A stretch of 37,857 bases of DNA from Anaerolineae bacterium (GTDB lineage Bacteria; Chloroflexota; Anaerolineae; UBA4142; SHND01). The position numbers were made by a program, and so were the translations under genes. Location of the stretch: positions 1 to 37,857 of the forward strand of contig JAJVIA010000006.1 in the NCBI GenBank assembly GCA_022072245.1. The letters are read 5' to 3'. The notes under the pieces are model-generated. The model was not told the DNA's origin. It made no database searches and saw only the letters and a list, made by a program, of their open reading frames with translations. Shown in pieces: positions 7,190 through 30,582 of this stretch; position 1 is the stretch's first letter, and each line of letters opens with the position of its first letter.

Positions 7190-7194
7190 TCGTG

Positions 7195-7902: not shown

Positions 7903-7935
7903 AAAAAATCCGCCGCACATTGCGGCGGATTTTTT
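7903..7935 (+). terminator. Strong bidirectional intrinsic terminator after the lipoprotein gene
   Basis: The stem ATCCGCCGCA (7908-7917) pairs perfectly with TGCGGCGGAT (7921-7930) around a CAT loop. It is flanked by an A-run and a T-run, so it can work on both strands, though only the plus-strand gene ends next to it. Confidence 0.9.
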
Positions 7936-7942
7936 ATGTAAC

Positions 7943-8014
7943 TCACGTTACGCACGCATAGTAACGCGCGATGCGGTTCAGCGTCTAAAGGTCTATAGCA
8001 CGCGCGTAACGTGA
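7943..8014. repeat. 72-bp element with perfect 11-bp terminal inverted repeats (MITE-like)
   Basis: TCACGTTACGC (7943-7953) and GCGTAACGTGA (8004-8014) are exact inverted copies enclosing 50 bp without coding content. No clear target-site duplication flanks it. It lies in the convergent gap between the lipoprotein gene and the large minus-strand cluster, where it could also form a long-loop hairpin. It may be a small non-autonomous transposon remnant or the fused ends of a lost insertion sequence. Confidence 0.6.
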
Positions 8015-8065: not shown

Positions 8066-11000
8066 TTATTTTTTCACGGCATCGTAAATCAAGAGCCGAT
8101 TGTTGCCCGCATCCGCGATATAGATTTGACCGTTCGCATCCAACGCGATGCCGGTCGGCAGCTGCATACTCGCCAAGTCGCTGCCGGGCGCGCCCCACAC
8201 CGCGCGCACTTTGCCATCGGGTCCGTATTTGATGACGCGATACCCTTCGGGGTCGGTGATATAGATATTGCCGTCCGCGTCCACCGCGATGTACGGTTTA
8301 TTGACGACCGATTGCGAATCCCACGCTTCGACCTCGATTTGGCGCACGGGATTCCAATCCGCGTCAAAAACTTGGATGCGCCGATTCCACGTATCGGCGA
8401 TATAAAAATTGCCGAGCCGGTCAATGGCAATGCCGACAGGTTCGAGAAATTCGCCAATCTCGGCGCCGGTGCCGCCGAACGCGTCCAGCGCCTCGCCGTC
8501 GGGCGAAAATTCAATCACGCGCTCGTTGCCCGTATCCGTCACCCACACATTGCCTTGCTTGTCCAACGCAATCGCGCGCGGGCCGTACAATTCCATCAAG
8601 TTGGAATCGTACTCTTCGCCCACGTCGCCGAACGCGCCCCACATGCCGAGCAAGTTTCCATCTCGGTCAAATTTTTGGATGCGATGATTCCACGTGTCCG
8701 CCACATAGACCGCGCCGTCCGCGCCAACGGCAATGCCCCACGGCTCATTGAATTGACCGGGCGCGCTGCCCTGTCCGCCCCACGCTTTGACGAAATTGCG
8801 CGCGGCGTCAAACTTTTGGATGCGATGATTGTTGGTGTCCGCCACATACACCGAACCGTCGGGACCCAACGCCATATTTTTGGGATTGTTAAAGCCGCCC
8901 TCGCTGCCGGTGAGCGTCGCGCTCGCTTGCAAATCATTTACAAATTGTTTGGTGTACGGGTCATCCTCCACCGCCGTTTGCGGCACGACGCCGGCGTACT
9001 GCCACAATTGATTTGCAATATCTTTGCGGACGTACAAGGAAAAGCGATGGACATAGGGCCAGCTGTTCAAATCATACGAGTACTTGCGATAGAACCAAAT
9101 ATCGCGCACGATTTTCTTGAAATTTTCGGGCTGCAAAAATCCTTGCGCCGGATTGCCGTTTTCATCCACGCCGCCGAATAATTTCATCCACGTCAAACCT
9201 TTGTAATCTTCGGCGGGCCACCAGACCAAACGCATCTGCCGTTTGAAATAGCGATTGCCGAGAAACGGTTTCACTTCGGCTTCGTTCGCGTCGCCCACAA
9301 TCACCACTTCGGCGTCAAACGGTCCGCCCGGTTTTTTACCGTAAAATTGCGCGTTGGAATAATCGCGCAGATACCACACAAAGGGCCACGACGAATCGTC
9401 GTCATAGGCGACTTTGATTTTGCCGTTTTCGCAATTCACTTGAATTTTGGCGTCGTTGGCGTTACCCGCGCACAAGCGCTGCGAGAGCTCTGCGATTTCA
9501 CGCATCGCCGCAGGCACATCCGGAGTCCCTTGCGCGTACACCAATACTTCGGTCGCCATATCTTTGTTGTAATACGCCGCGCTCGCGGTAGTGCGAATCG
9601 TGAACAGCGCCAGGATGCCAAATAACGTTACGAGCAGAACGCGCAGCGCGTTTTTCAGACCGAGCGTCATGCCCAAATACACGACGCCGCCCGTACACGC
9701 GCCAATAATCAAAATGGCGACGATGGCGCTCGAACGCGCGGCAAGGTCGTCCAACGGCGTGCCGGATAATGGCGCGGGTCCAAAAAAGAATTGAAACGCC
9801 AACACGAGCAAACCGAGCGTGAACAATAGCGCCATCCACAGCGCGCCCTGTTTGAATAACGCGCGCCAATCCGCGCGCAATACATCGTTCATGAAATAGC
9901 CCGCGACGAACGACAGCGGAATAGCAAGGTGCATATTGAGCCACGGCATTTTTTCGCCCGCCCACGAAAATAAAACGAGGACGCCAATGCTCCACACGCC
10001 CAACAAAGTGGGAAAGCGCGTGGATTCATCGTCGGGATTGTACGCCAACGCGAAAAAGAGGGGCATCAAAAAGCCGAGCAGCAAGACCGTAAAATTCGCC
10101 GCTTGCAAACTGTCTTTGCCGCCAAAGAGTGGAAAATTCTGCAAGAGCCAGCCCGCGTCGGCGGCGGCAGGATTGGGCTGCACGATGCCGGGCGTGAACC
10201 AGATGTACGCTTCGAGCGCCGCCAAAAACGCCGCCACGCCCGCAAAAAGCGCCGCGCGTTTCCAACTGCGCCGCCACAAAATATACAGCAGCCCCAAGCC
10301 GCCAAACAGATACGGCAGATATTCGTACATCGGCAGCGTAATCAAGAAATAATAATACTGCGGTTGACCGCCGCGCTGGACGCTCTGTTGCGAAATCCAA
10401 TATCCGAGCGAACCGACGAAACCGGAACCGATGCCTGCGGGATTGGTGAAAAAGGTGGTAAAGAGGATGAGCATGATGGGATAAAACCACACCGCGCAAA
10501 TTAACCACTTGCGCCAATTCCAAATCAAGCCCACCGCCGCCGAAGCGACAATGAAAAACACGAGCGCCAAACCGCTCGCCTGAATCGAAGCCACCGCCGC
10601 GTAATCGGTCGGGTCGGTCGTCAACGCCGCGCCAAACAACCGATTGATGCCCGCAAAACCGTACTTGATAAATAATGGCGTCGCGCCCATCGGCACGAGA
10701 AATGTGCCCAGCACGAGCAGCAAATCGAACGCCGCGACGTCAAACGCGCTCTCGCCTTCCGGAGTGTGTTTATCGCGCCACAGTCCAAATTTTTCTAGAA
10801 TAAACAGAATGACGGCTAAAAACGCGAACGGCAAACCGAAAACCGCCGCGAGCGCGGCGTTCGCCATTTTCGACGCGGGCATCCGTTGATTGAACCAATC
10901 GAACGTGAACGCAGAGGCGAGAAAATAACCAAACAACGCCATAAAGATAAACGTCGTCTCCATCGCCGTGAACGCGAACGCCAACATCGCCACCGCGAAA

Positions 11001-11527
11001 TACAACCAATTCGTTTTACGCGCGGCGAGATATTTCATGATGGCTAACGCCAGCAGCACGACAAACACTTCGACGTAAATGTCGTGGCGATCCACGCGCG
11101 AATAATGCGCGACGACGGGCGAAATCAAGAGCAGCGCGGTCGTAACGACCCAGCCGCGTTTGCCCAGCCATTGACGAAACAAGAACGGCGCCGCGAGCAA
11201 CACCAAGCCAAAGAGGACGGGCATGACGCGCGCAGAAAAATCATTGTCGCCCAAGATAAAAAACGCGAGCGCGGTCGCGTGATACAACAGCGGGCCGTGA
11301 TAAATGGGATTGTGAATATAGCCGCGCCCCATGTACAAATCATTCGACCAGTGCGTATGAATGGCTTCGTCGTGGCTCCACGCCGCGCTGCCCAAATCGT
11401 AAAAACGCGTGAGCGCCGCAATCAAGAGCAGCGCGACCAAAAGCGCCACATCCCAATTGATTTTTCCCAGCGCGCTCAATGGCGTCGCCCAGATAGATTG
11501 TCGGGGTTGTTCAACCGGTACAGACAT
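8066..11527 (-). CDS. TIGR03663/Agl23-like GT39-superfamily membrane protein fused to an NHL propeller
   Basis: This 1153-residue protein has a polytopic N-terminal part (about 1-660) of the PMT/GT39 superfamily, specifically like TIGR03663 (Agl23-like, flippase-associated). After the first membrane helix it shows SAAWSHDEAIHTHW (48-60), with the acidic His-Asp-Glu loop expected of these enzymes, then NPIYHGPLLYH. A soluble region (about 690-860) follows. From about residue 870 to the end there are six NHL-type repeats, each like NPKNMALGPDGSVYVADTNN followed by HRIQKFD, giving a six-bladed beta-propeller. The family is thought to act with polyprenyl-linked sugars; the propeller should face outside and may bind a protein or glycan. 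It is the last gene of the cluster. The start ATG at 11525-11527 follows a 92-bp AT-rich repeat. Confidence 0.9.
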   Translation of the reverse strand: MSVPVEQPRQSIWATPLSALGKINWDVALLVALLLIAALTRFYDLGSAAWSHDEAIHTHWSNDLYMGRGYIHNPIYHGPLLYHATALAFFILGDNDFSARVMPVLFGLVLLAAPFLFRQWLGKRGWVVTTALLLISPVVAHYSRVDRHDIYVEVFVVLLALAIMKYLAARKTNWLYFAVAMLAFAFTAMETTFIFMALFGYFLASAFTFDWFNQRMPASKMANAALAAVFGLPFAFLAVILFILEKFGLWRDKHTPEGESAFDVAAFDLLLVLGTFLVPMGATPLFIKYGFAGINRLFGAALTTDPTDYAAVASIQASGLALVFFIVASAAVGLIWNWRKWLICAVWFYPIMLILFTTFFTNPAGIGSGFVGSLGYWISQQSVQRGGQPQYYYFLITLPMYEYLPYLFGGLGLLYILWRRSWKRAALFAGVAAFLAALEAYIWFTPGIVQPNPAAADAGWLLQNFPLFGGKDSLQAANFTVLLLGFLMPLFFALAYNPDDESTRFPTLLGVWSIGVLVLFSWAGEKMPWLNMHLAIPLSFVAGYFMNDVLRADWRALFKQGALWMALLFTLGLLVLAFQFFFGPAPLSGTPLDDLAARSSAIVAILIIGACTGGVVYLGMTLGLKNALRVLLVTLFGILALFTIRTTASAAYYNKDMATEVLVYAQGTPDVPAAMREIAELSQRLCAGNANDAKIQVNCENGKIKVAYDDDSSWPFVWYLRDYSNAQFYGKKPGGPFDAEVVIVGDANEAEVKPFLGNRYFKRQMRLVWWPAEDYKGLTWMKLFGGVDENGNPAQGFLQPENFKKIVRDIWFYRKYSYDLNSWPYVHRFSLYVRKDIANQLWQYAGVVPQTAVEDDPYTKQFVNDLQASATLTGSEGGFNNPKNMALGPDGSVYVADTNNHRIQKFDAARNFVKAWGGQGSAPGQFNEPWGIAVGADGAVYVADTWNHRIQKFDRDGNLLGMWGAFGDVGEEYDSNLMELYGPRAIALDKQGNVWVTDTGNERVIEFSPDGEALDAFGGTGAEIGEFLEPVGIAIDRLGNFYIADTWNRRIQVFDADWNPVRQIEVEAWDSQSVVNKPYIAVDADGNIYITDPEGYRVIKYGPDGKVRAVWGAPGSDLASMQLPTGIALDANGQIYIADAGNNRLLIYDAVKK

Positions 11528-11619
11528 TTCTGAATTTAGATTTTAGAATTTCAATTTTCGATTTTCGATTCCGTAGCGCGTGACGCCCAAATCGAAAATC
11601 AGAAATCGAAAATCAAAAA
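11528..11619. repeat. AT-rich intercistronic inverted repeat
   Basis: GATTTTCGATT (11560-11570) and AATCGAAAATC (11590-11600) form a perfect 11-bp inverted repeat with a 19-bp loop. Further AATCGAAAATC- and AATCTAAAAT-like words lie on both sides. The low-GC composition contrasts sharply with the adjacent GC-rich genes. It is one of the larger gaps in the glycan cluster. It could be an mRNA processing or stability hairpin or a spreading short repeat. No promoter stands out. Confidence 0.75.
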
Positions 11620-13548
11620 TTACTTGAGCGTCGGCAGCCACAGCATCGTCGTCTGCGCGGATTCGCTGCCGCCTTGTCTAAAGACATACCATTTCCACAC
11701 ATCAAAACCGCGCGCATCGCCGAGCGTCCATTCAGTTCGGACGCGATAACGCTGTCCCATCCAATCGCCGGGCGGCGGCGCGTCGGCGGGCGAAACAATC
11801 GCTTGCGCGTCCGCCGCGCGTTCGATTTGATTCGTCCACGTCACATTCACAAAATCGCGCAGATACCATCGGCCGACCGCGCCCAATTCTTGGTCCGCCG
11901 CGATACGCATCACGTGCGCGTCGCCTTGGCGATTTTGCGAATACCATTCCAAATCGTGGACCAACGTTCGCAGATGCTGCGGCGTTTGCGTCGCCGCGAT
12001 TATTTCGCGCAGCGGTTCCGTCGTATCAAAATTCAAGAGCCAGAGCGCGCGCAATTGACCCAACAGCAAAAGCGCGCACAGCGCCAACGCGAGGAGCGTC
12101 AGCGTGCGCCCCACGCCCACCAGCGCCATGCTCAAGCCGACAAAAATCGCGAGCAAAAAAATTGCGAGCAAACCCAGCGTCGCCAGCGCGGGCCCCAGCG
12201 AAGTCGCGTCAACGCCGCCCAACTGGCGAAAAAATGCGTCCAACGCGGGCGAAAAGCGCGCTTGCTGTAAAAACGCGCCCACTTGGAAATAAAGCAGCAC
12301 GGTCAACAACAATAGCAAGAGTAACACCGGCAGTTCGCCCGACAGCGCGGAACTCGCGCCGCCGGACGCGCGAATTTCCGCGTGCGCGCGTTCCAACAGA
12401 TTGCCAATGAACCAGCCGGCGAGCAAAATCAGCGGCAGCGTTATGGCAACGACATCGGCGGGTCGCGTCTGCGCGCCGAGCGAATACCATACGAACGCAA
12501 ACATGGCGCTGACCGCCAACATCCGCAAAATGTCCAACTCGGGCGTTTTGGCGCCGCGATAGGACAACGCCAATACCGCGCCCGCCAAACCAAAGAGCAG
12601 CGCGAGCGGTTCATACGCCAACACATAATTTAACGGCGTCGTGAACGCGCCAAGACTGGATAACGCGGACAACCACGCGCCCAACAGATTGAACGCCGCG
12701 CCCATTCCGTCGCGGTTCAATAAAAAGGTCGTCGCCGCCAAAAGGTACGTCGCCGCAAACAAGAACGCGGCGCGCGCGTACGGTTTGCGCCACCATTTCG
12801 ATTCAACCGTTTCCGCAGCCGATTCCGCTGCCGCGCGTTCGCGCCGCGTCCGCAAAAAAGCAAACGTGAAATAACCTGCGCCGCCGACCAAAATAGGAAA
12901 AGCCGTCGCGTCGGCGGTCAGCGCGAGCGCGGCGAGAATCGCGCCGAGATACAAGCCGCGCGCGTTTTGCGACGCGCGAAAATTCCAAAACAGAATCAAC
13001 GCCGCGACCATTCCGCCCACCGCCGCATCGGACGCGCCCAAATGCCGTCCAAAGAAAACGAGGGTCGGCGAAAGCGTGAGCAGCAGCGCCGCCGTCAATG
13101 CGCCCGTACGTCCAAACGTATTGCGCGCCAACAAGGGGATAAACACAATGAGCGCGCTCGCCGCGGCGGGCAGCAGGCGCGCGGTGACATCGAACGCGCC
13201 AAACAATAAAAACGCGACCCAATTGAGCGTAAATAAAAGCGGACTGCTAAATTCGCCGACGGGTTGGCTCTGCAAAAACGCCCATGCCGCCGCCGCCGTT
13301 TTGGCTTCGTCCGGCGCAAGCGGACGCGCGTCCAAATTCATTACGCGCAGCAAGACGGCGCAAACGCCCAGCGCGATGTAGGCGACCGCTTCGAGCGTGA
13401 GCCAGGGCGCGACGACCGACAAGGCGTCGGGCGCGCGTTCGGCGGCGGAAATTTCAACGTCCGCAGGCAGCGTCGTTTCCAGCGGCGCATCGGTTGCGGC
13501 GACAGCGGCAGCGGCTTGATTTTGTTTGCGAGAACGAGATTTCGGCAT
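11620..13548 (-). CDS. GT39-like polytopic membrane glycosyltransferase
   Basis: The 642-residue product has a charged, Ala-rich cytoplasmic N-terminus (MPKSRSRKQNQ, then about 45 residues), then about 12 predicted membrane helices starting near residue 50. After the first helix comes NLDARPLAPDEAKTA (about 71-85); the Pro-Asp-Glu in this loop corresponds to the catalytic acidic loop of PMT/GT39 enzymes. The motif GEFSSPLLFTLNW follows. A C-terminal soluble part of about 120 residues contains LRTLVHDLEWYSQNRQG. The start at ATG 13546-13548 is chosen because a longer frame overlaps the preceding gene's 3' end and adds atypical sequence. It lies 28 bp after the DUF2298 gene. Sugar donor and acceptor are unknown. 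Confidence 0.8.
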   Translation of the reverse strand: MPKSRSRKQNQAAAAVAATDAPLETTLPADVEISAAERAPDALSVVAPWLTLEAVAYIALGVCAVLLRVMNLDARPLAPDEAKTAAAAWAFLQSQPVGEFSSPLLFTLNWVAFLLFGAFDVTARLLPAAASALIVFIPLLARNTFGRTGALTAALLLTLSPTLVFFGRHLGASDAAVGGMVAALILFWNFRASQNARGLYLGAILAALALTADATAFPILVGGAGYFTFAFLRTRRERAAAESAAETVESKWWRKPYARAAFLFAATYLLAATTFLLNRDGMGAAFNLLGAWLSALSSLGAFTTPLNYVLAYEPLALLFGLAGAVLALSYRGAKTPELDILRMLAVSAMFAFVWYSLGAQTRPADVVAITLPLILLAGWFIGNLLERAHAEIRASGGASSALSGELPVLLLLLLLTVLLYFQVGAFLQQARFSPALDAFFRQLGGVDATSLGPALATLGLLAIFLLAIFVGLSMALVGVGRTLTLLALALCALLLLGQLRALWLLNFDTTEPLREIIAATQTPQHLRTLVHDLEWYSQNRQGDAHVMRIAADQELGAVGRWYLRDFVNVTWTNQIERAADAQAIVSPADAPPPGDWMGQRYRVRTEWTLGDARGFDVWKWYVFRQGGSESAQTTMLWLPTLK

Positions 13549-13576
13549 GGCAATACAATCAGATTGCGCGGCGTCG

Positions 13577-16048
13577 TCAATGCGACGCGTCCACGCGATA
13601 AATGCGGATGGAATTTTGTTCAAAAACCAGCGCGCCCAATTTGCTAAACTTGTCAATCAAGGATTGATTCAGCTGATATTTTTCGCGTTCGATGCCGCCG
13701 ACAATCACATAACTCACGTTATATTTATCCAGCAGCGCGCGCGCCGCAGCCACGTCGCGCGTACGATAAAGCTGTTCCAAATCGCGCTCGCGCGGGCCCG
13801 CCTGGTCATAATTGCCGCGCCACTGTAATTCATGGCCGCCCCACCCCAACACGCTTTGCAAACCCGTCGCCACCGCGACGCGATTGTCAAACGAATACTC
13901 GCGTCCCGCCGCTTCGACAATCACCGCGTCGGAGGGAATGTTTGAACGCGCCCATTCAATCGCCGCGTAATCGTCCGGAAATGCGCCGCGCACCCACACC
14001 CAACCGTCCAACGTCGGCGTGCCGGCGCGCGCGTCGGGCTTGAACGCGTTGGCGCGACTCGGCAGCGCGAAAAATGGATACAGCAAACTCAGGAACGTCA
14101 AACCGCCCAGCGCGCTGAACCACACATATTTGCCCGCGCCGCGCGTGGTCTGCCAAATATAAAACACGCCGAACGCCGCCGCGACGCTAAACAAAAGCCA
14201 CGCTTGATAATACAGCTTGAACACCGTATTCATGCGCGTTTCAAATGTATCGCGAATGTACAAAAATTCGACGCCAAAGGTCAGAATCAACGCGGCCAAC
14301 GCGAGCAGCAGCGCAAACGTCACGGCATTGCGCCGCGCCGCGTTTTCTGGTTCGGAATTCGTCAAATTCAAACGCCCCAGAGCGGCGACGGACGCAATCA
14401 AGAGCGTCAATAAAATAAACGTGCCGGGACTCGCAACGAACGTTCCCGCGAACGCGCGCACGACGCCGAACGGCGTATCTTGCGGCGACATATTCAAAAC
14501 GCCCGCCAACATATTTTGCAATTCGGAACTGTTCAATAGAACGACAACGCCCAACCCTGCGATAACCAACGGCACGGCGAGCAGCGGCAGCATGAATTTT
14601 GCGATTTCGCCGAGCGCGCGCTTGCGATTCGGTTGTTGAAAAAACAGGACCGCCGCGAAACTTGCGACGATGAAAATAAACAAGCCGAACATGATGAGAT
14701 ATTGCGCGAGCGGCGTGCGATTGAAAATGTTGGGCGCGATGCCGCGCGCTTGCGATGAAAAACTCGCATAGAACGGCGCGAACAAGATTACCGCGCCGAC
14801 GTACAAAAGAATAAAGTACGCCATGGCGGTCGCAAGCATCGCTCGCGACGCGCGACCGTGCGCGCGATATTGCCGTATGGCAAACGCGGCGGCAATGAGA
14901 ATGCCGTACGTCACAATGTCCCACGTATTCAACATCCCCAAGGCGCCGACAATCAACATGTTTGGCAAAATTTCCGGCGTCAGCGTTTGCGTTCGCAAGA
15001 GCGAGAGAAAATCTTTGGACGCGAGCGGCATCGTCGGCCGCAGCGTCAGATTGAGCGCGCACGCGAGCGCGAGCAGACCAAACGGCAGCGCCAAAACGTG
15101 CGGATGCAAATCGCCGAGCAGAAAACTAAAGAACGGAAATTCGTCAATCACTTCGACGTGGCCGCCGCCACTCGGATTTTGATCGTTCAAGACGCGCGAG
15201 GCGCGCCACCACCACCACCCATCTTGCGGCGCGAATGTGCCGGACGGCTCTACCTCTTCTAAACCGTGCAGGTTCAACGCCGCGTAAAAATCGCGGGACC
15301 CAAGCCCCGCGTTGTAACCCACCTCGAACGCGCCTTCCAGATTGCCAATGACCAAGAGAAACACCGCCGCCGCGAGACCGAATACGTACGGCGCGCGCGA
15401 ACCTTTGCCATTGCGCTCGTCTTTTTGGGCATAGCGCGCCAAATTATAGACCAAGCCGAACGCGCCCACCGCCGCGAGCGCGAACGTCATGACCAAACCG
15501 AGATTGAACGCGTACGCGGAGGGGATATTGCCCAGCTTGGTCAGCGCCGCCACAATCACGTAACCGAGATAATAATAACTGATGGCAAACCCTGACAGCC
15601 ACGCGTCATGCGGCGGAAACGTTTGGCTCTGCAAGATGGAATTGAGAAACATAAATTCCATCGGTTTTTCGGTCGCGTTGATTTCGGGATTGAACGCGCG
15701 GAAATAGCCGAACGCGAGATACGCGACCAAGAAAATAATTTCGACGACCAAGACATATTTCCAGCGCGCGCGCAGCCACGCCCACACGGAATGTTCGCCG
15801 CGTCCGCGCAGCAAGCCCCAACTCGCCGCCGCGAGCGCGACGAGCAGAAACGCCAACACGCCAAAATCGTTTTGCAAAAAGCCCAGCGACGTGAGCAGCC
15901 AAAACGGATACACCCACAGCAGCAGCGCGAACGGTTTGGCGAACGCGTACCCGCGGTCCGGCAAGAAACGCAAAACGCGCAGCGTCACGGGTAACGCGGC
16001 GAAACTAAGGAGGAGGAGAAGCAGCCACCAAATAAAGAGATACAACAT
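13577..16048 (-). CDS. Stand-alone DUF2298 (TIGR03662, 'Chlor_Arch_YYY') membrane protein
   Basis: This 823-residue polytopic protein belongs to the DUF2298 family, known from Chloroflexi and archaea. Diagnostic stretches are EKPMEFMFLNSIL, GFAISYYYLGYVIVAALTKL, VIDEFPFFSFLLGDLHPHVLALPF and RMNTVFKLYYQAWLLF, all predicted at outer-face loops or helix starts. The C-terminal soluble segment (IEWARSNIPSDAVIVEA, NRVAVATGLQS) recurs in the upstream fusion protein. The family is thought to be a relative of GT-C glycosyltransferases, but biochemical proof is lacking as far as I know. AGGA (16055-16058) lies 6 bases before ATG. It sits 33 bp downstream of the GT39-DUF2298 fusion gene, to whose second half it is clearly homologous. 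Confidence 0.92.
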   Translation of the reverse strand: MLYLFIWWLLLLLLSFAALPVTLRVLRFLPDRGYAFAKPFALLLWVYPFWLLTSLGFLQNDFGVLAFLLVALAAASWGLLRGRGEHSVWAWLRARWKYVLVVEIIFLVAYLAFGYFRAFNPEINATEKPMEFMFLNSILQSQTFPPHDAWLSGFAISYYYLGYVIVAALTKLGNIPSAYAFNLGLVMTFALAAVGAFGLVYNLARYAQKDERNGKGSRAPYVFGLAAAVFLLVIGNLEGAFEVGYNAGLGSRDFYAALNLHGLEEVEPSGTFAPQDGWWWWRASRVLNDQNPSGGGHVEVIDEFPFFSFLLGDLHPHVLALPFGLLALACALNLTLRPTMPLASKDFLSLLRTQTLTPEILPNMLIVGALGMLNTWDIVTYGILIAAAFAIRQYRAHGRASRAMLATAMAYFILLYVGAVILFAPFYASFSSQARGIAPNIFNRTPLAQYLIMFGLFIFIVASFAAVLFFQQPNRKRALGEIAKFMLPLLAVPLVIAGLGVVVLLNSSELQNMLAGVLNMSPQDTPFGVVRAFAGTFVASPGTFILLTLLIASVAALGRLNLTNSEPENAARRNAVTFALLLALAALILTFGVEFLYIRDTFETRMNTVFKLYYQAWLLFSVAAAFGVFYIWQTTRGAGKYVWFSALGGLTFLSLLYPFFALPSRANAFKPDARAGTPTLDGWVWVRGAFPDDYAAIEWARSNIPSDAVIVEAAGREYSFDNRVAVATGLQSVLGWGGHELQWRGNYDQAGPRERDLEQLYRTRDVAAARALLDKYNVSYVIVGGIEREKYQLNQSLIDKFSKLGALVFEQNSIRIYRVDASH

Positions 16049-16081
16049 CCCGAATCCTGTGCGATTTTTTTTACTGACGTC

Positions 16082-21016: not shown

Positions 21017-21028
21017 GCGTTATCACAA

Positions 21029-21048
21029 GCGGGAAAATTTTATCCCGC
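21029..21048. repeat. Intercistronic hairpin in the glycan cluster
   Basis: GCGGGA (21029-21034) pairs with TCCCGC (21043-21048) around an AT-rich 8-base loop, in the 48-bp gap between two cluster genes. No T-tract follows on the minus strand, so it is more likely an mRNA processing or stability element than a terminator. Confidence 0.4.
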
Positions 21049-21064
21049 GCGTATGAATGGCAGA

Positions 21065-23374: not shown

Positions 23375-23391
23375 GGCAATCGAGACGACGA

Positions 23392-23400
23392 ATTATAGCA
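23392..23400 (-). promoter_or_regulatory. Possible internal promoter (extended -10) in the glycan cluster
   Basis: The minus strand reads TGCTATAAT, a perfect extended -10 (TGnTATAAT), in the 46-bp gap before the 769-residue GT39 gene. No -35 is recognisable. The start point would lie only about 11 bases before the start codon, giving a very short leader. Confidence 0.4.
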
Positions 23401-23420
23401 CAGCCAATTTGAGCGCGCGG

Positions 23421-25448
23421 CTATTCGATGCGCGTAAAAAACGCCACAAAATCGCGGCCGGGCGTTTTGGAATCCACGCGCACCGCGACGCCTGACGGAT
23501 ATAATTTTTCCAACTGCGCCAACGAAACCGTATCTTGGTTTTTCAACACGTACAATTTTGGCGCGGGGTCGCGCGCCTGTTCTACAAATTGCCGTTCATT
23601 TTCAACCAGATGACTTTGGAAATCAAAATTGCCCAAATGAATCCCCACCGCGCGATAGTCCACCCAATGCGGCGCGGACACAACGTAAATGTGTTCCCAA
23701 TCGTTATTCTTTTCCGCAAACACGCGCAGCGCGTCCGCAATCTCGGTGGAATTCCACGCCGCGCGGCGATATTCATCGTCGTACTTGGTAAAATACAAAT
23801 TGAAATTCGTCAGCAATATGCCCACCAAAACAACGCCGACCAAAAACGCGCCGAGCGTTTCCGAACCCGCGCGCGCAAACAATTTGTAACTCCACGCCAA
23901 CGGCAACGCGGCGAGAAGCATGATCAACGGCGCGACGCCGCCCGCGCGCACGACGCTCGGATTTTCTTCGGGAAAGGCAAACGCCAGCGTGGAAGGCAGC
24001 AATAAAATAAAGACGGCGCTAAAAATCAGCGCGAAAGGATATTCGCGAAAGCGCAGCAAACGATACAGCGCATACAACACGCCCGCCAACAGACACGCGC
24101 CCAACAAAAAATCAACCGCCGGCGCGTTCGGCAGCGAATTCACCCACACCACATCGCCGCGCACATTGAACATGCCGAACGCGCGCAGATTGTTATCCAA
24201 AAAAATGAGCGGCGGATTGCCTTGCACCGGAACTTCGAGCGAAGTCAAACGCGTAGCCATGCGATACGCAAACCGGTCGGGATGCGCGGAAATATAACCC
24301 AACAACGGCGCGCACACGAGCAGCGCCGCGCCAAACAACAAGACCGCGTTCAGAACATAACGCCGCGTTCCGTTCGCGGTGACGTTGAAATCGTACAAAC
24401 GCCACACGACCAGCCACGCCAGCGTCAAACCGACGACGACGCGAAACGGACTATAGCCGTTCAAGCCGACGCCCAGCAAAATGCCCGCGAGTAAAAAATC
24501 GTTGCGCGTTTGCCGTCGCAGCGCGCGCAGCAAAAAAAATAAAGTCCACGCGACAAATAACGGCGCAAGCGGATAACGCAAGCCGATGCGCGCAATGGCA
24601 AGGGGAAAGATGCTGACGGCAAACAGGAACGCGGCGAGCAAACCCACTTTAGCGTCGAACATTTCGCGCGCGAGCAAAAACACCGCCGGAAGCGTCAACA
24701 CGCCCGCCGTCGCGCCGACAATTTTTAACGCGAGCATGTCGAGCGGCGCCAGCCCCAGCCACACCACCAGCGCGTTCGCATAAAATTGTAACGGTTCGCG
24801 CCCCGTGTTGCGCTCAAAGAAAACCGAAAACTTGCCGTGCAAAATATCGTACGTGTCGAGAATTTTTTCCGCGTGGTCGCTCGTCATTTCGGCGGGCAGC
24901 GCGTCGAGCCGATAAAAATAAAAAAACGCGCCGAGCGCCATGACGCCCAACAATGCAATGAGCAGCCACCGCGCGCGCTGACCCCGTTTGTCCTTGCGCC
25001 GCAGCGCGGCAATTTTCGCGCGCGCCGTATCCCAACCCGCCAGCGGCGAACCTTCCCAAAACGCGATAAAAAAGAGGATGAGACAAGTCGCCCACGCGGA
25101 AACGCCGAGCGGCGTAAAAACATTCGCGCGCGCCTCGAAAAACGCAATGAGCGCAAACACAAAAGCGGGCAACGCAAATAGCGCGCGCGCGGGATTCGGC
25201 GGCGGCGCCGGCGTTACCGCGCGCATCGGCGGACGCAATGCGAGCGCAAAGAGCGAACCGCTGCGACTGTACGCGGCGAGGAGCAGCAGCAGCGCGCTGA
25301 AATATGCCAGACCCGCAGCCAGCGTCGCGCCATTTTCATAAATGACGCGCTGCGTCAAAAACGCGACGAGTAACCCAACCGTGAATAACGCCAGGGCAAC
25401 CCATTCGTGACGATGGGCGGAGGTGAGACGAACGCGAACATGCGGCAT
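23421..25448 (-). CDS. GT39-type membrane glycosyltransferase
   Basis: This 675-residue protein has about 12 membrane helices. Four helices precede the GT39 core, which begins near residue 180 with RLDALPAEMTSDHAEKILDTY. The Asp in the Thr-Ser-Asp-His loop stands at the position of the catalytic acid. The motifs NTGREPLQFYANALVVWLGL and FPLAIARIGLRYPLAPLF follow, typical of the PMT/ArnT superfamily. The C-terminal soluble part (about 580-675) contains VFAEKNNDWEHIYVVSAPHW, the same kind of lumenal module as in its neighbours. It starts 45 bp after the methyltransferase gene and no promoter is seen there, so it is probably co-transcribed with the upstream genes. Donor and acceptor are unknown. 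Confidence 0.87.
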   Translation of the reverse strand: MPHVRVRLTSAHRHEWVALALFTVGLLVAFLTQRVIYENGATLAAGLAYFSALLLLLAAYSRSGSLFALALRPPMRAVTPAPPPNPARALFALPAFVFALIAFFEARANVFTPLGVSAWATCLILFFIAFWEGSPLAGWDTARAKIAALRRKDKRGQRARWLLIALLGVMALGAFFYFYRLDALPAEMTSDHAEKILDTYDILHGKFSVFFERNTGREPLQFYANALVVWLGLAPLDMLALKIVGATAGVLTLPAVFLLAREMFDAKVGLLAAFLFAVSIFPLAIARIGLRYPLAPLFVAWTLFFLLRALRRQTRNDFLLAGILLGVGLNGYSPFRVVVGLTLAWLVVWRLYDFNVTANGTRRYVLNAVLLFGAALLVCAPLLGYISAHPDRFAYRMATRLTSLEVPVQGNPPLIFLDNNLRAFGMFNVRGDVVWVNSLPNAPAVDFLLGACLLAGVLYALYRLLRFREYPFALIFSAVFILLLPSTLAFAFPEENPSVVRAGGVAPLIMLLAALPLAWSYKLFARAGSETLGAFLVGVVLVGILLTNFNLYFTKYDDEYRRAAWNSTEIADALRVFAEKNNDWEHIYVVSAPHWVDYRAVGIHLGNFDFQSHLVENERQFVEQARDPAPKLYVLKNQDTVSLAQLEKLYPSGVAVRVDSKTPGRDFVAFFTRIE

Positions 25449-25493
25449 GGAAAAAACAGGCGGAACGAACGGAGTAAATTTTTTGCTTGAACG

Positions 25494-26339
25494 TCAAGCG
25501 GGTTTGCGGAGCGCCAACGCATTAATCATGAACGACGTATCTGCGGGCAAATCCTCGTTGAAATGGTCAATCCAATTAAACAAGCGCAAACCCAAACGCA
25601 CCGGATTCAACGCCGACGGCTGGGCGGTTTCGCCGCCAAAACGGTCCGCCGCCGCGCGCATATTTTCGGGCAACATTCCCTTTTCAAACAGCGGTTTGCC
25701 CAACCCATACACCAGATTGTGCGCGAACGGAAAACAGTAATGCAGAATCGGATAAAACTCGCGCAGCTCAAAGCCGGCGCGCGCGACCAGCGCCTTGATT
25801 TCGTCGGGATAATACAAGCGTTCGTGATTCGCCCAAATGCCCGCTAAAGCGCCGCGCTGAATGTGCGTATGAAAAACAGTTTCGAGCGTTTTATTGATGG
25901 GGTCCCACCAAAACGGATAATTGTGATTCGGCACGGTGAGAAAGAGCAAACCGCCGGGTTTCAAGACGCGTTTGATTTCATTCAAGCCGCCCCAATCGTC
26001 GGGCAAATGTTCCAACACTTCGCTGAAAATAATTTTGTCGAATGTGTCGTTCGGAAACGGCAGCGGGTCAATGTAACTGCGCGCCACGCTCGCGCCGCGC
26101 GGGCGATTTTCCGCCAGCGCGATTTCCAAATGCTCGAAATCCAAATCCACGCCAAACAATTTGCACGGCGCGAGTTCGCTCACATATTTCATGAAAAAGC
26201 CGCGCCCGCAGCCCGCATCCAACACCACATCCGTCGGCTGAAAATCCAACGCGCGAAACAGATAGCGCACGCGGCGTTTGAAACCCATGTCCGCTTCGTT
26301 TTGCAGCAGGCGCATCAAGCGCGCTTGGTCAATGCTCAT
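25494..26339 (-). CDS. Class I SAM-dependent methyltransferase
   Basis: The 281-residue soluble protein has a Rossmann-type methyltransferase fold. Motif I is VVLDAGCGRGFFMKYV (38-53), the acidic residue after strand two lies in GVDLD (63-67), and a later FSEVLEHLPDDWG plus LKPGGLLFLTVPN complete the Methyltransf_11/25-type core. The C-terminal 100 residues (YPILHYCFPFAHNLVYGLGK) are hydrophobic and may touch the membrane. Its ATG overlaps the TGA of the GT4 gene by 4 bp, so the two are probably translated together. Within this cluster the likely substrate is a sugar on a lipid carrier or a lipid precursor, but that is inference from context. N-, O- or C-methylation cannot be told from sequence. 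Confidence 0.9.
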   Translation of the reverse strand: MSIDQARLMRLLQNEADMGFKRRVRYLFRALDFQPTDVVLDAGCGRGFFMKYVSELAPCKLFGVDLDFEHLEIALAENRPRGASVARSYIDPLPFPNDTFDKIIFSEVLEHLPDDWGGLNEIKRVLKPGGLLFLTVPNHNYPFWWDPINKTLETVFHTHIQRGALAGIWANHERLYYPDEIKALVARAGFELREFYPILHYCFPFAHNLVYGLGKPLFEKGMLPENMRAAADRFGGETAQPSALNPVRLGLRLFNWIDHFNEDLPADTSFMINALALRKPA

Positions 26340-27478
26340 TGTGTATTTACCAATGTTTCAAATAATTTTTCGTATTCATCCAACGTTTTTTCGGTATTGA
26401 AAATTTCGCGAATCTGCGCGCGCGTTTTCATGTACGCATGGCGGTTCGTCAAAACCTCAATCAAACCTTCCGCCAGCGCGCGGGGGTCGCGGGGCGCGAC
26501 GAGCTTGCCCATTCCCGTCACGCGCACCACCTCACGCGCGCCGGGAATGTTTGTGGCGACGACAGGCGTACCGGACAACATGGCTTCGATTTGCACGCTC
26601 GGAAAACAATCGGTGCGGCTCGGCAGCGCAAACACATCATTGAGCGCGTAAAAATTCGCAAGCCGCTGCGGGTCCAGCAGCAAACCCAGCGTTACGATGC
26701 TTTCGCGTTCTTGTTCCACCAAATGTTTCCACCGGTCGAAAAAGCGTTCGTACACCACATTGATTTCGCCCGCGTACACAAATTTTACGTCGGGAATTTT
26801 CGCGCGCACGAACGGAATGGCTTGCAATAAATAATCGAAACCTTTTTCCTCCACAAAACGTCCGGCGAAACCGACAAGTTTATTTTGGGTTAAACCCAAT
26901 TCCGCGCGCCACTGCGCGACCTGTTCTAGATTCGGTTCGGGAATTTCAACCGGCGGATAAATGCAATCGAGTTTGGCGCGAAACGGCGATAGAAATTTAC
27001 TGTGGTCGGCGTAATCGCAGCTGTGAACGGTGATGCGCGTCGCCTCGCGTTCGCCCTGCACCATCAGCGCGGTCATGGCGCGTTCGATAAATTGGTCGCG
27101 GGAATTTTGCGGCATCACCAAATCGCCATGATGCGTAAGCACGGTCGGTTTGCCGCGCATCAAACCGACGCGTGTCACCAGATTCGTTTCCAGCATTGGC
27201 GTATGCACTTGGAGCAAATCGTGTTCGCGCGCGAGCCGATAGAGCGTCGGCAGAAACGCGGGCATCACCACGCCGCGACTCAGATGCAACGCGGTGGGCA
27301 AACGCACGATGCGTACGCCATTGTGCATTTCCGTGCGCGCCAATTCTTTTTTGTATTGCGATGTGAGAACCGTCAGCTGATGGCCCCGTTTAGCGAGACC
27401 TTCCGCCAAACGCAGCGCGTAGGCGGTCAAGCCCGTCCAGTGAGGATAGTAATACGTTAAACTGACCAGAATTTTCAA
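26336..27478 (-). CDS. GT4-family (GT-B fold) glycosyltransferase
   Basis: This 380-residue cytoplasmic enzyme has the two Rossmann-like domains of GT-B transferases. The N-terminal domain opens MKILVSLTYYYPHWTGLTAY, with a Gly-rich acceptor loop. The C-terminal donor domain starts LVGFAGRFVEEKGFDYLLQAI (about 200-220) and contains ALPSRTDCFPSVQIEAMLSG. In that stretch the family's Glu-x7-Glu nucleotide-sugar motif appears as Asp-x7-Glu, a conservative change. It should add a sugar from a nucleotide donor, with retention, to a membrane-bound acceptor. It overlaps the YfhO-like gene upstream and the methyltransferase gene downstream by 4 bp each. It is the only nucleotide-sugar-dependent glycosyltransferase recognised in the window. 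Confidence 0.93.
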   Translation of the reverse strand: MKILVSLTYYYPHWTGLTAYALRLAEGLAKRGHQLTVLTSQYKKELARTEMHNGVRIVRLPTALHLSRGVVMPAFLPTLYRLAREHDLLQVHTPMLETNLVTRVGLMRGKPTVLTHHGDLVMPQNSRDQFIERAMTALMVQGEREATRITVHSCDYADHSKFLSPFRAKLDCIYPPVEIPEPNLEQVAQWRAELGLTQNKLVGFAGRFVEEKGFDYLLQAIPFVRAKIPDVKFVYAGEINVVYERFFDRWKHLVEQERESIVTLGLLLDPQRLANFYALNDVFALPSRTDCFPSVQIEAMLSGTPVVATNIPGAREVVRVTGMGKLVAPRDPRALAEGLIEVLTNRHAYMKTRAQIREIFNTEKTLDEYEKLFETLVNTQ

Positions 27479-29547
27479 ACGACGCTCCGACTAGGAATAT
27501 CTTGAACTTGTTCGGCGTTCACCGCCGCGAAATTATTCGGTTTGCGCCACAAAAAAATCGCCCACACACAGCCCAAACCTAAAAGCGCAAAACCGAGCAT
27601 CCCTTCCCAGGGCCGATAGCGCAATTGAATGAGATGTTTGCCAGCCGGCAGCGCCAGCGCAATCCATCGTTCATTTTCAATTTGCGCCGCTTTGCCATCC
27701 ACCGTTACATTCCATCCCGACCAATTATTTTCTTTGACCACCAACTCGCCCGCTTGACGCGTTTCACAGGCAACGTCAATATCGCCCGCGTCGCCTTGCG
27801 CCGCGCAGATGGTCGGCTCGGCGGAAGCGTATTCCACTTGGGCATATTCTTGATTTGTCGCCGCGCGATACAGCTTGATGCCATCCACCTCAGGAATCGA
27901 ACCTGCCTCAACGGTCTCTTTGGGCGCCCACTTGCCTTCCGCCTGAAGCGCGGGCGCGGGCGACGGACGATCTTTCCAACCCCATGCGAACGGATACCCC
28001 GCAATTTTCAAGCCGCGCGCCATCGCCGACTCTAAATATCCCACTTCGCCCCAAGGAAAATTAACCCATTCGAGCGTGGGCGTATGCAGCGCCGCAATCA
28101 CGCGCGGCACGTTCGGCGATAACGCATCCATCCGAATCCATCCCTGCGTAACTTGTTTCACATTCCACACGCCCCAAATTAAAGGAAGCACAAGCAGCCA
28201 ATTCAAAGTAAAAGCCAGCGGTTTCGCGCCGTTCGCGTTCTGAATACCGATTTGCAACTGAACCGCAAGTTTGGCAAACAAGCGATCCACCCCAATCGCG
28301 CCGAGACCCAAGATCGGCAGCACGGCGAGACCGGCAATGACGGGCGAACTCCGCAAACTCATAATTTGATAACCGAGCCAAGATTTTGGAAACTGCTGAT
28401 TGATAAATTGACGCGGCTCTAAACTCGCCACAATCACCGCCGTCATTGCCGCCAAAAGCAAAAACAACATGACGCGCGTTTCCGTTCCAGCGCGCGCCAT
28501 ACGCACGCCCACCAATGCCAAGAGAATCGCCATCCAACCAATATAATTTACATAGAGCGCCGGAAACGGCGCCATCGCCAAAATCGGCGTCCCATAAAAG
28601 CGCGGGTCATTCACCACAAAACTCAAGGGAATAAACGTGAACGGTTGGATGCCGCCAAAATTCACGTCCGCCGCTTTGGTGACTTGGGAAAAATTGAGCG
28701 CGAACGACAAGACAAACGGCGCGGCGAGCAAAAACGCCAGCGCAAACGCTTGCGCGTACCGCCGCGCCACCAATCCAAAATTTGGTTTGCCCCACGGCAA
28801 GAGAATCAAGGTCAATGGCAGCAAAAGAATAAACCCAAACTGAATGTATCCTTGCCCCGCCACCGCCGCGCACGCCAACAAAATACCCGACAGAACCGCC
28901 GCGCGACGCGAACCCGTCAACGCCACGCGAATAAATGGCGGAAAAATGAGCGCGACCGACGCCGTCGCCAAGGCGACGCCAAACCAACCCATCTGCATCC
29001 GCCCCGCGATATTGCCCGCGACCACCGCGAGCAGCGCGCTCCACATACGCGCCAGCCAACCCAAACCCAACACGCGCGCTAACCACCACTGCGCCAAGCC
29101 CGCCATGAAAAAAATTCCCACCAAAGCGATTTTGCTGCCATTGATAACGCCCCAGCCCAAAGTGGTGACGATTACCAATGGATGCAAACTACTGGGAAAT
29201 AAATCTGCCAGAGCCGGCGCGCCGCCATTCAAACCGCCATTCCAAAAAAAACAGAGACCACATTCGCGCCAACGCGTCCAGAGGTGATGAAAATTAACCG
29301 TGAGAAAAAAATCTACGCCCGCCGGTTGAGTGAGCGGGTCAAAATTTAAATAGGGCGACGCAAACCAAATTGTCCAAATCGCCAAAAGCGTCAATTCGAG
29401 CAGCGCTGGAAGCTGCTTTCGCAGCGCTGCCGCGCCGCGCCCAAACGCGGCGGCGAATTGTTCCGCCGTAGGAATGTGCGCCGAGAGTTTTATCCAAGCA
29501 GCTGTACGGGACGTTCGAGACAGATCGGAGCGGGAATGAATGGACAT
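27475..29547 (-). CDS. YfhO-like polytopic membrane protein (GT-C-like)
   Basis: With ATG at 29545-29547 the product has 690 residues and about 12 membrane helices. GGGAGG (29555-29560) lies 7 bases upstream, which decides this start over a TTG five codons earlier. The first outer loop holds PAGVDFFLTVNFHHLWTRW and then CFFWNGGLNGGAPALADLFPSSLHPLVIV. This matches the YfhO/DUF6541 pattern, where a Trp-Asn-Gly-Gly loop is followed by a Pro-rich helix start. The C-terminal soluble part contains WSGWNVTVDGKAAQIENERW and a final helix, as in YfhO C-termini. YfhO proteins are implicated in glycosylating lipoteichoic acid and related polymers in Firmicutes; the substrate here is unknown. Its stop overlaps the GT4 start by 4 bp. 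Confidence 0.85.
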   Translation of the reverse strand: MSIHSRSDLSRTSRTAAWIKLSAHIPTAEQFAAAFGRGAAALRKQLPALLELTLLAIWTIWFASPYLNFDPLTQPAGVDFFLTVNFHHLWTRWRECGLCFFWNGGLNGGAPALADLFPSSLHPLVIVTTLGWGVINGSKIALVGIFFMAGLAQWWLARVLGLGWLARMWSALLAVVAGNIAGRMQMGWFGVALATASVALIFPPFIRVALTGSRRAAVLSGILLACAAVAGQGYIQFGFILLLPLTLILLPWGKPNFGLVARRYAQAFALAFLLAAPFVLSFALNFSQVTKAADVNFGGIQPFTFIPLSFVVNDPRFYGTPILAMAPFPALYVNYIGWMAILLALVGVRMARAGTETRVMLFLLLAAMTAVIVASLEPRQFINQQFPKSWLGYQIMSLRSSPVIAGLAVLPILGLGAIGVDRLFAKLAVQLQIGIQNANGAKPLAFTLNWLLVLPLIWGVWNVKQVTQGWIRMDALSPNVPRVIAALHTPTLEWVNFPWGEVGYLESAMARGLKIAGYPFAWGWKDRPSPAPALQAEGKWAPKETVEAGSIPEVDGIKLYRAATNQEYAQVEYASAEPTICAAQGDAGDIDVACETRQAGELVVKENNWSGWNVTVDGKAAQIENERWIALALPAGKHLIQLRYRPWEGMLGFALLGLGCVWAIFLWRKPNNFAAVNAEQVQDIPSRSVV

Positions 29548-29554
29548 GACGCAT

Positions 29555-29560
29555 CCTCCC
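29555..29560 (-). promoter_or_regulatory. Ribosome-binding site deciding the YfhO-like start
   Basis: GGGAGG is 7 bases before ATG 29547 and overlaps the alternative upstream TTG start, which therefore cannot be used efficiently. Confidence 0.75.
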
Positions 29561-29571
29561 AAACAAAAAAT

Positions 29572-30582
29572 TTACTCTGCCGTTCGGTCAACCGCCGCAT
29601 TCTGCGTGCTAATGTCTTGAATTTTTGCCAAATCAATCCCTTGGCGCGCCGTCGAAATAATTCCCAAAAGCATCAACATCAAATATGAAATGCCGTGAAT
29701 CACAAACGCGTATGCCAGCGCGAGATTTTTGTCCGCGCCAAAAATGGTCGTCAAGATAAAAACCGCCGCCAAATGAAAGACGCCCAATTGCCCCGGCGAT
29801 GCCGCCACCGTTACCACCAATGCGGTGGCGACCTGCACCCAAAAACCGGCAATCAACGGCAGCTGCAAACCCATCGCCAACATCACCAGCCACGCCAAGA
29901 CGGACGCAAAGAACCAAATTTCAATGGACCATGCGATAGCTTTGAGCAAAGGGCGCGGCGTGCGAATCACCGCAAAGCCCGCAATCAAATGTTCGATGAA
30001 ACGCCACAAACCTTCGCGCTGCAAAAAGGGAAACGGCGCCGCGAGTCTTTTGAGAAACGCCACGCCGCGCGCTTGCTGGTACGAAATGACCGCCAGCGCA
30101 ATCAACAACGCCAAACCGATGACGCCCAACGTCAAACCGGCGCGCACATAATCTTGCGGCACGTTGGGCGTAAACGGCAGCATGAGAACCAAAAACAAAA
30201 CCACCGTCAAACCGTCCAACGTGCGTTCGACCACCACTGTGGACAGGGCGCGCGCCACCGGAATTTTTTCCAGCGTGCCGAGCAAATACGCACGCGCGAA
30301 ATCGCCGATGCGCGCGGGCGTGACATTGCTCAACAAATAACCAATGTTGAGCGCATCAAAGGTGCGACTCCAGCGCGGATGGTACGGAAAAAAAAGCGCC
30401 TGCCAACGAAACGCGCGGCCCACATAGCTAATCATAAAGACGCCAATCAATACCGGCAGCCACCACCAATTGAATTGCGCGAGCGACGCCAATAATTTAT
30501 CGAATTGGATGCCCTGAAACGCCAAGACGAGCGTGACGATGGTAAGGATGAGACCAATCCAGAAGCGTTTGGATTTGAGCAA
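29572..30582 (-). CDS. LPG-synthase-TM / AglD-like flippase-domain membrane protein
   Basis: The 336-residue product has about 8 membrane helices and belongs to the UPF0104/lysylphosphatidylglycerol-synthase transmembrane family, often called flippase-like. Seen are the early FMISYVGRAFRWQALF segment, the conserved NIGYLLSNVTPARIGDFARAYLL motif (about 80-102), and TVVVERTLDGLTVVLFL. The later AASPGQLGVFHLAAVFIL segment is the second family signature. No C-terminal synthase (DUF2156) domain is present, so it is not an MprF enzyme. Such proteins are thought to act on lipid carriers or lipid-linked sugars. The start is TTG (30580-30582), supported by GGAG 8 bases upstream. It is the first gene of the minus-strand glycan cluster, divergent from the YkgJ-like gene. 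Confidence 0.9.
   Translation of the reverse strand: MLKSKRFWIGLILTIVTLVLAFQGIQFDKLLASLAQFNWWWLPVLIGVFMISYVGRAFRWQALFFPYHPRWSRTFDALNIGYLLSNVTPARIGDFARAYLLGTLEKIPVARALSTVVVERTLDGLTVVLFLVLMLPFTPNVPQDYVRAGLTLGVIGLALLIALAVISYQQARGVAFLKRLAAPFPFLQREGLWRFIEHLIAGFAVIRTPRPLLKAIAWSIEIWFFASVLAWLVMLAMGLQLPLIAGFWVQVATALVVTVAASPGQLGVFHLAAVFILTTIFGADKNLALAYAFVIHGISYLMLMLLGIISTARQGIDLAKIQDISTQNAAVDRTAE

Follow-up and report, generated by a model that had tools for sequence, protein, structure and literature searches.

What do ten consecutive genes, most of which encode large membrane proteins, assemble at the surface of a Chloroflexota bacterium? The genes lie on contig JAJVIA010000006.1 of an Anaerolineae bacterium (assembly GCA_022072245.1; 3.99 Mb in 141 contigs, 79.75% complete). 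Positions 1 to 37,857 of this contig were analysed and are here called the window; the contig of the block and that of the window are the same. The listing of open reading frames (ORFs) contains ten ORFs in unbroken succession on the minus strand from 8066 to 30582, as described in the initial annotation, which was made from the sequence alone. They are designated J to A in the direction of transcription; J, which ends at 30582, is transcribed first and A, which reaches 8066, last. The run is conserved in Chloroflexota and likely serves to assemble a surface glycan at the outer face of the membrane, by means of stacked enzymes of the glycosyltransferase (GT) C fold (GT-C).

Domains were assigned by Pfam and NCBIfam profile searches against curated cut-offs (TIGR03662, 300.25 bits; TIGR03663, 126.25; PMT_2, 26.1; YfhO (PF09586), 28.5). 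The block contains seven GT-C modules, five of PMT_2 and two complete modules of DUF2298/TIGR03662 ("YYY"). C (13577..16048) is a YYY protein of 823 aa (DUF2298, 381 bits; TIGR03662, 518.8 bits). D (16082..21016) is a fusion of 1,644 aa, in which a PMT_2 module (44 bits) is joined to a complete YYY module (DUF2298, 368 bits; TIGR03662, 526.7 bits). This second DUF2298 was missed in the initial annotation, which had counted one. A (8066..11527) combines a TIGR03663/Agl23-type GT-C part (232.3 bits) with a C-terminal NHL propeller. B (11620..13656) is a PMT_2 protein just over the cut-off (27.4 bits) and is related to TIGR03663, at 99.0 bits under the cut-off for that family. The PMT_2 protein E (21065..23374; 769 aa; 62.2 bits) scores 44.2 bits against TIGR03663, likewise under the cut-off. 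F (23421..25448; 675 aa) matches PMT_2 at 37.9 bits and archaeo_STT3 at 21.6 bits, far under the cut-off of 450. A, B, D, E and F pass the gathering score of PMT_2, and C is assigned to GT-C by fold alone. The hydropathy estimate gives 11 to 21 transmembrane (TM) helices in each of A to F.

The four genes transcribed first are of other kinds. J (29572..30582) is a flippase-like membrane protein of the LPG_synthase_TM/TIGR00374 type (Pfam, 171 bits; TIGR00374, 91.5 bits). H (26336..27478) is a soluble GT4 glycosyltransferase (Glyco_trans_1_4, 100.8 bits) and G (25494..26339) is an S-adenosylmethionine methyltransferase (Methyltransf_11, 72.8 bits). I (27475..29562) is a protein with about ten TM helices. 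No family passes its cut-off in I; YfhO matches at 25.0 bits over a span of only 46 residues, and the label "YfhO-like" given to I earlier falls under the cut-off. Among the ten genes, no polymerase, O-antigen ligase, STT3 or donor synthase is over cut-off in Pfam and NCBIfam, in agreement with the initial annotation, which had recognised no polymerase, ligase, oligosaccharyltransferase or donor synthase. No Wzy/ligase, Wzx, Wzy_C, LCP or ABC export family was found among them in the same searches.

TIGR03662 has matches in all 60 close genomes, the host genome included, which are in or near Anaerolineae, and is over cut-off in 58 of them. Gene neighbourhoods were compared in 33 regions from 31 genomes, including the window; two genomes have two regions each, and the other genomes (30 of the 59) were picked mainly for long contigs. 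Family profiles were built from phmmer matches to the window proteins; the labels of the PMT_2 proteins B, E and F can swap. Adjacency was counted among same-strand genes of at least 250 aa. A second set of 80 GTDB loci shares genomes with the regions (L093, for example, is also G005), and the two sets are not independent. Three of the 33 regions, which are without a C call (G022a, G029a and G056), and one of the 80 loci (L115) were left out of the adjacency counts.

The run (F)-(E)-D-C-B-A is found repeatedly in the 33 regions and is often preceded by H, G and J. The order PMT-YYY, YYY, PMT, Agl23-NHL is widely recurrent in the relatives, which include Ornatilinea apprima, Thermoflexus, Brevefilum and many uncultured Anaerolineae. 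Among the 30 regions with C, D is immediately before C in 18 of 30 and B immediately after C in 23 of 29; A follows C directly in 2 of 29 and follows B directly in 22 of 23. In 79 of the 80 GTDB loci, D is before C in 44 of 66 cases, B after C in 45 of 62 and A immediately after C in 10 of 62. Family thresholds were passed in the 33 regions by A in 26, B in 20, C in 30, D in 31, E in 8, F in 16, G in 7, H in 17, I in 2 and J in 12. The count for G is too low, because weaker methyltransferase matches occupy its position in more regions. I passed its threshold only in the window and in G003, so it is read as accessory. D-C-B is the most conserved part; A adjoins it in many relatives, not in all, and the presence of E and I varies. 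Ornatilinea (L140) has genes for an acyltransferase and a cytidylate kinase after B, in the place of A. Between J and H, Pfam identifies an NAD-epimerase-family gene in two relatives (L137 and G008/L045). C is ~33-63% identical across other genera and families, which carry the same PMT-YYY fusion and order. The initial annotation had proposed a check of gene-order conservation, and the order is indeed kept outside the host genome, in other genera and families.

Some relatives carry further genes in or next to the run. In L095 (6757-8631) and L096 (6356-8766), genes of 269, 540 and 625 aa are inserted between D and C; they matched no Pfam family at E ≤ 0.001. Proteins with PMT_2 and a C-terminal PA14 domain are encoded directly downstream of A or one gene further on (L097:17709-21338, L105:17797-20604 and L216:3-2963). 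In L097, the protein has NHL as well and scores 49 bits against the STT3 N-terminal family.

The wider distribution was examined in 121 Chloroflexota genomes, that is, the host genome and 120 others drawn at completeness ≥90. TIGR03662 is over cut-off in 81 of the 121 and TIGR03663 in 79. All 79 are among the 81 TIGR03662-positive genomes (G147 and G171 are without it), against none of the 40 others, in a comparison of tables made by hand among related genomes that are not independent events. An Agl23 match lies within 10 kb of a YYY match in at least 41 of the 81, and all 41 are on the same strand and downstream of YYY. This number is a lower bound from matches over cut-off: no YYY match was used for G085, G093 and G139, and G145 was counted as unlinked although its YYY-Agl23 pair is present. 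The order YYY, Agl23, J-type gene is observed in G106, G145, G169 and G140, which belong to another class of the same phylum, and in L118, L121, L147 and L169. This trio is the deepest unit seen.

An FAD (flavin adenine dinucleotide) amine-oxidase-family gene follows the trio in all four cases checked with Pfam (L118, G106, G169 and G145). Genes of this family are found at L118:15192-16481, L209:5562-6869, L210:416-1753 and L213:6148-7473; that they act in the oxidation of polyprenol or sugars is no more than conjecture. In L118, an SRP54/FtsY-like GTPase gene (9063-9989) lies immediately before YYY. G165 encodes a protein of 2,498 aa with two DUF2298 stretches and tetratricopeptide repeats. 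A DUF2298 gene is also present in a rumen Pseudobutyrivibrio (L205; plasmid pNP95, NZ_CP043029.1) among polysaccharide genes. These are WecB, epimerases, GT2s and an O-antigen ligase family gene, with DUF2298 on the opposite strand, and this context gives separate support for a glycan role. A DUF2298 copy on a Halarchaeum plasmid is at the end of its record, where the context says little.

The structural model of C, built with 67 sequences, has a mean predicted local distance difference test (pLDDT) of 93.8 and a predicted template modelling score (pTM) of 0.95. Foldseek against PDB returned only four matches at E ≤ 0.001, all of them GT-C with probability 1.00. Three are DPY19 entries (C-mannosyltransferase; E = 3.9e-6 to 5.0e-6) and the fourth is AftA (arabinosyltransferase; 1.2e-5). 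A part of the model weakly resembles the C-terminal domains of AglB (E = 0.011-0.042; 0.64 for a second AglB). The model thus predicts a GT-C-like fold for DUF2298, as a match at the level of the fold family. DUF2298 may already be placed in the GT-C clan of Pfam. A sequence link between DUF2298 and PDB was rejected; its best match was LMBD1 (8e-4), judged to be a hydrophobic artefact. The model of A (pLDDT, 86.5; pTM, 0.75) has a C-terminal propeller that matches NHL domains in PDB. The GT-C part is largely helical in both models.

An acidic residue is conserved in all seven modules, in the loop that comes after the presumed first GT-C helix; in C, the second module of D, E and F, other helices precede the helix that is read as the first. 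In A, D53/E54 are acidic in 25 of 26 family members, and among 29 sequences D53 is invariant and E54 and H57 are conserved at ≥90%. E117 of B is acidic in 20 of 20 members. E127 of C is invariant in the alignment of 20 sequences and conserved at ≥90% in that of 67. D95 and E96 in the PMT_2 module of D and E882 in its second module are acidic in 31 of 31, E289 of E in 8 of 8, and D191 and E218 of F in 16 of 16 (E194 in 15 of 16). DUF2298 keeps two more motifs, D313-x-H315-x-H317 (H315 invariant, D313 and H317 ≥90%) and RxNT..K (R605, N607 and T608 invariant, K611 ≥90%), which might contact the donor or a metal. Glu71 is the proposed catalytic residue of DPY19 (PMC10154233), and by our reading it could be the counterpart of the acidic residues in the modules. 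The conservation of these residues argues that the modules are probably enzymes. The addition of sugars by GT-C enzymes, put forward in the initial annotation, agrees with the PMT_2 matches, the predicted fold of DUF2298 and the acidic loop residues.

A scheme for outer-face assembly may be proposed. GT2 enzymes of the GtrB/DPM type, encoded elsewhere in the genome, would make polyprenyl-phosphate sugars in the cytoplasm. The GT4 protein H and the methyltransferase G would build or cap a lipid-linked primer at the inner face. J, A or both would carry lipid-linked sugars to the outer face. There, the GT-C modules of B, C, D (two), E, F and probably A would add single sugars successively, in a manner likened to the stacked GT-C enzymes of mycobacterial arabinan and mannan assembly. 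Operon organisation, donor, topology, direction of flipping, identity of the sugars and acceptor are what we infer in this scheme. Outside the block, on contig C29, the host genome encodes a GT2 protein (L173) that scores 316.8 bits to sll0501, which we take to be the polyprenyl-phosphate sugar synthase GtrB. A weaker DPM-like protein (L176, 65 bits) is on the contig of the window beyond the window. With these two proteins in the genome, donors can probably be made there, though not from the block. There are also six Wzy_C matches in the genome, all outside the block. The gap in donor synthesis and ligation pointed out in the initial annotation holds for the block itself, and is probably filled in part elsewhere in the genome.

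Several observations weigh against outer-face assembly by GT-C enzymes. The order is not universal: in the GTDB-locus set, only 16 of 37 cases have A after B. Among the matches used, 40 of the 81 YYY-positive genomes have no YYY-Agl23 pair within 10 kb, in assemblies that are partly broken; in five of them the two lie on the same contig at a long distance, and the other 35 have no pair on a single contig. The fold matches of DUF2298 have low TM-scores (0.26-0.37, with a root mean square deviation of 16-20 Å), so that the match is at the fold-family level and not close. When the DUF2298 and Agl23 profiles were compared, no significant homology emerged (hhalign probability, 8.8). In the fold search with A, the propeller fills the 50 listed matches, and none of them belongs to the GT-C part. 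We know of no activity, product or mutant for any member of the block. Finally, Haloarcula Agl23 acts as a flippase in vitro (PMC11182771), and A could be a transporter.

In a first alternative, the block would make a lipid- or wall-attached glycopolymer, such as a lipoglycan or a secondary wall polysaccharide similar to lipoarabinomannan or arabinogalactan, which would be transferred by a Wzy_C-type ligase or another enzyme encoded elsewhere. The stack of GT-C enzymes, as in mycobacteria, the six Wzy_C matches of the host genome and the polysaccharide context of DUF2298 on pNP95 are in its favour. However, no Wzy_C, LCP or ABC export family is among the ten genes, and the locus is not tied to peptidoglycan. 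With MurG (TIGR01133, E ≤ 1e-3) as the test, no match was found in 15 of the 121 genomes; three of the 15 (G106, G145 and G169) keep YYY and Agl23, and 28 of the 106 genomes with a MurG match are without an over-cut-off YYY. The curated MurG cut-off is passed in 38 of 121, and archaeal controls match at E ≤ 1e-3; "absent" is thus firmer than "present" in this test. Peptidoglycan was rejected as a strict partner on this basis. A glycopolymer is a plausible product, although the balance falls somewhat short of making it the probable one.

Alternatively, proteins may be glycosylated directly. Single sugars or a short chain would be added to S-layer or giant surface proteins in a PMT- or DPY19-like manner, without an oligosaccharyltransferase. 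The closest folds to DUF2298 are protein C-mannosyltransferases, but AftA, a polysaccharide GT-C, matches almost equally. The NHL and PA14 domains on GT-C proteins of the block and its neighbourhood could dock proteins, yet no obvious gene for an acceptor protein is within the block. The three genomes without a MurG match that keep YYY and Agl23 favour a protein acceptor, while the Pseudobutyrivibrio copy, amid polysaccharide genes that include an O-antigen ligase family gene, does not. The archaeal controls Haloferax and Methanosarcina match TIGR03662 and STT3 alike, which is also counted in favour of protein glycosylation. Taken together, direct protein glycosylation can be entertained tentatively and with some doubt.

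N-glycosylation fed by an oligosaccharyltransferase was considered separately and rejected, as STT3 is not an evident partner. The host genome has no STT3 over cut-off, its sole PF02516 match being at 20.2 bits against 24.5, although this absence is uncertain because the genome is 79.75% complete. PF02516 matches are present in 32 of the 121 genomes and over cut-off in 14. Only G130, which is without YYY and Agl23, has long, high-scoring matches (93 bits). The other PF02516 matches listed (≤32.3 bits) are read as probable cross-matches of PMT_2.

The next alternative concerns A and J, which would be only flippases for polyprenyl-phosphate sugars, A being no glycosyltransferase. Lipid-linked oligosaccharide is flipped by the purified Agl23 of Haloarcula, which also rescues yeast with a deletion of rft1 (PMC11182771). 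TIGR03663 is named after Agl23 in NCBIfam. On the other hand, A passes the PMT_2 cut-off and keeps D53, E54 and H57, with an acidic pair of the kind found in GT-C catalytic loops. An exclusive flippase role is unlikely on these grounds, and the acidic residues leave the role of A undecided because of the flipping activity of the purified Haloarcula protein.

A broader proposal is speculative and improbable at present: DUF2298/YYY would be the founder of a GT-C family and, with Agl23 and an LPG_synthase_TM flippase, would form an old bacterial-archaeal core that needs no oligosaccharyltransferase to glycosylate surface proteins directly at the outer face and that was extended to a seven-module assembly line in the class of the window. 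A chance cluster, as might be expected in a genome with 36 PMT_2 match rows, is highly improbable, because the same order and PMT-YYY fusion recur in other genera and families at ~33-63% identity of C, the distributions of YYY and Agl23 are coupled, and a terminator-like hairpin lies downstream of the run. Outer-face assembly of a surface glycan by stacked GT-C enzymes is retained as the favoured interpretation.

The spacing of the genes is tight. The gaps of 2-100 bp reported earlier need correction: three neighbour pairs overlap (I-H and H-G by 4 bp each, C-B by 80 bp) and the others are separated by 9 bp (J-I), 45 bp (G-F), 46 bp (F-E), 48 bp (E-D), 33 bp (D-C) and 92 bp (B-A). Given the 80-bp overlap of B with C, translation of B may begin downstream of the listed TTG start. 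The hairpin, with a T-rich 3' arm, is at 7903..7935 on the minus strand, 3' of A (fold of 7895-7950: -27.5 kcal/mol, z = -6.16); it is absent from the listing of the terminator pattern scan. We infer that the ten-gene run is an operon. Scans for tRNA and with Rfam were both empty.

A glutamine synthetase gene is oriented divergently on the 5' side of J. Just past it, a further GT-C gene (32569-34383, minus strand) is over cut-off for PMT and PMT_2 and faintly TMEM260-like. Four of five genomes of the same genus retain it near the block, and the contig of the fifth stops short. LepA (35702-37507), also upstream, is close to J or D in the distant members G036, G046, G049 and L129 and is an old neighbour of the block. 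On the other side, an ORF of 236 aa (7192-7902, plus strand) lies between A and SucC, on the strand opposite to the block. It belongs to no Pfam family, but it looks like a real gene, because it has matches of 44-58% identity among the ORFs of five genomes of the same genus. A second flippase gene lost between A and SucC was considered and rejected; tblastn with 24 J-like proteins gave a best E of 0.16. The host genome (G000) has, besides its PMT_2 matches, 35 GT2 match rows, a large glycosyltransferase load for an incomplete genome of 4 Mb.

The initial interpretation is thus partly supported. Both signature families are already named, and "undescribed" was too strong a word for the system, because TIGR03662 and TIGR03663 are curated and a flippase activity of an archaeal Agl23 is published (PMC11182771). 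The present analysis adds the extended conserved run and the PMT-YYY fusion within its core, the predicted GT-C fold of DUF2298 with conserved acidic residues, and evidence against a strict requirement for STT3 or peptidoglycan. Among the papers listed from the open-licence literature, no function was found for YYY/DUF2298, which is mentioned in the appendix of PMC8756737, and no product for the block. The accessible parts of PMC10284905 and PMC10920833 hold nothing on the locus, and little was found on envelope glycans of Anaerolineae in the open-licence literature, the accessible part of PMC10608941 included. The locus offers DUF2298 a testable function as an outer-face glycosyltransferase, and a bacterial setting in which to ask if Agl23 works as a flippase, as a glycosyltransferase or as both. 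It could show how a phylum with long STT3 matches in only 1 of 121 sampled genomes decorates its surface. Its signature family is present in all 60 close genomes searched.

Four known systems may be compared with the block. C, D and A are over the curated cut-offs of the families TIGR03662 (Chlor_Arch_YYY) and TIGR03663 (Agl23), whose co-occurrence is presumably recorded in the family notes. Here, the pair sits in a ten-gene run with a PMT fusion, NHL, GT4, methyltransferase and flippase-like genes. With the Agl22/Agl23 pathway of Haloarcula hispanica, the block shares the Agl23-named family of A; it differs in the NHL propeller of A and in the absence of an over-cut-off STT3/AglB from its incomplete genome. 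In mycobacteria, several GT-C enzymes act in sequence with polyprenyl-phosphate donors. AftA, from their arabinogalactan/lipoarabinomannan stack, is the fourth fold match of DUF2298, whereas no sequence relation is shown, no LCP family is in the block, and the block is not tied to peptidoglycan. The three-component Gtr systems (GtrA/GtrB/GT-C) combine a GT-C enzyme with a polyprenyl-phosphate sugar synthase (PMC11127046). The host genome similarly encodes an sll0501-like GT2, judged by similarity only. In contrast to the Gtr systems, this GT2 is on another contig, the GT-C modules are seven instead of one, and the flippase-like protein J belongs to the LPG_synthase_TM family.

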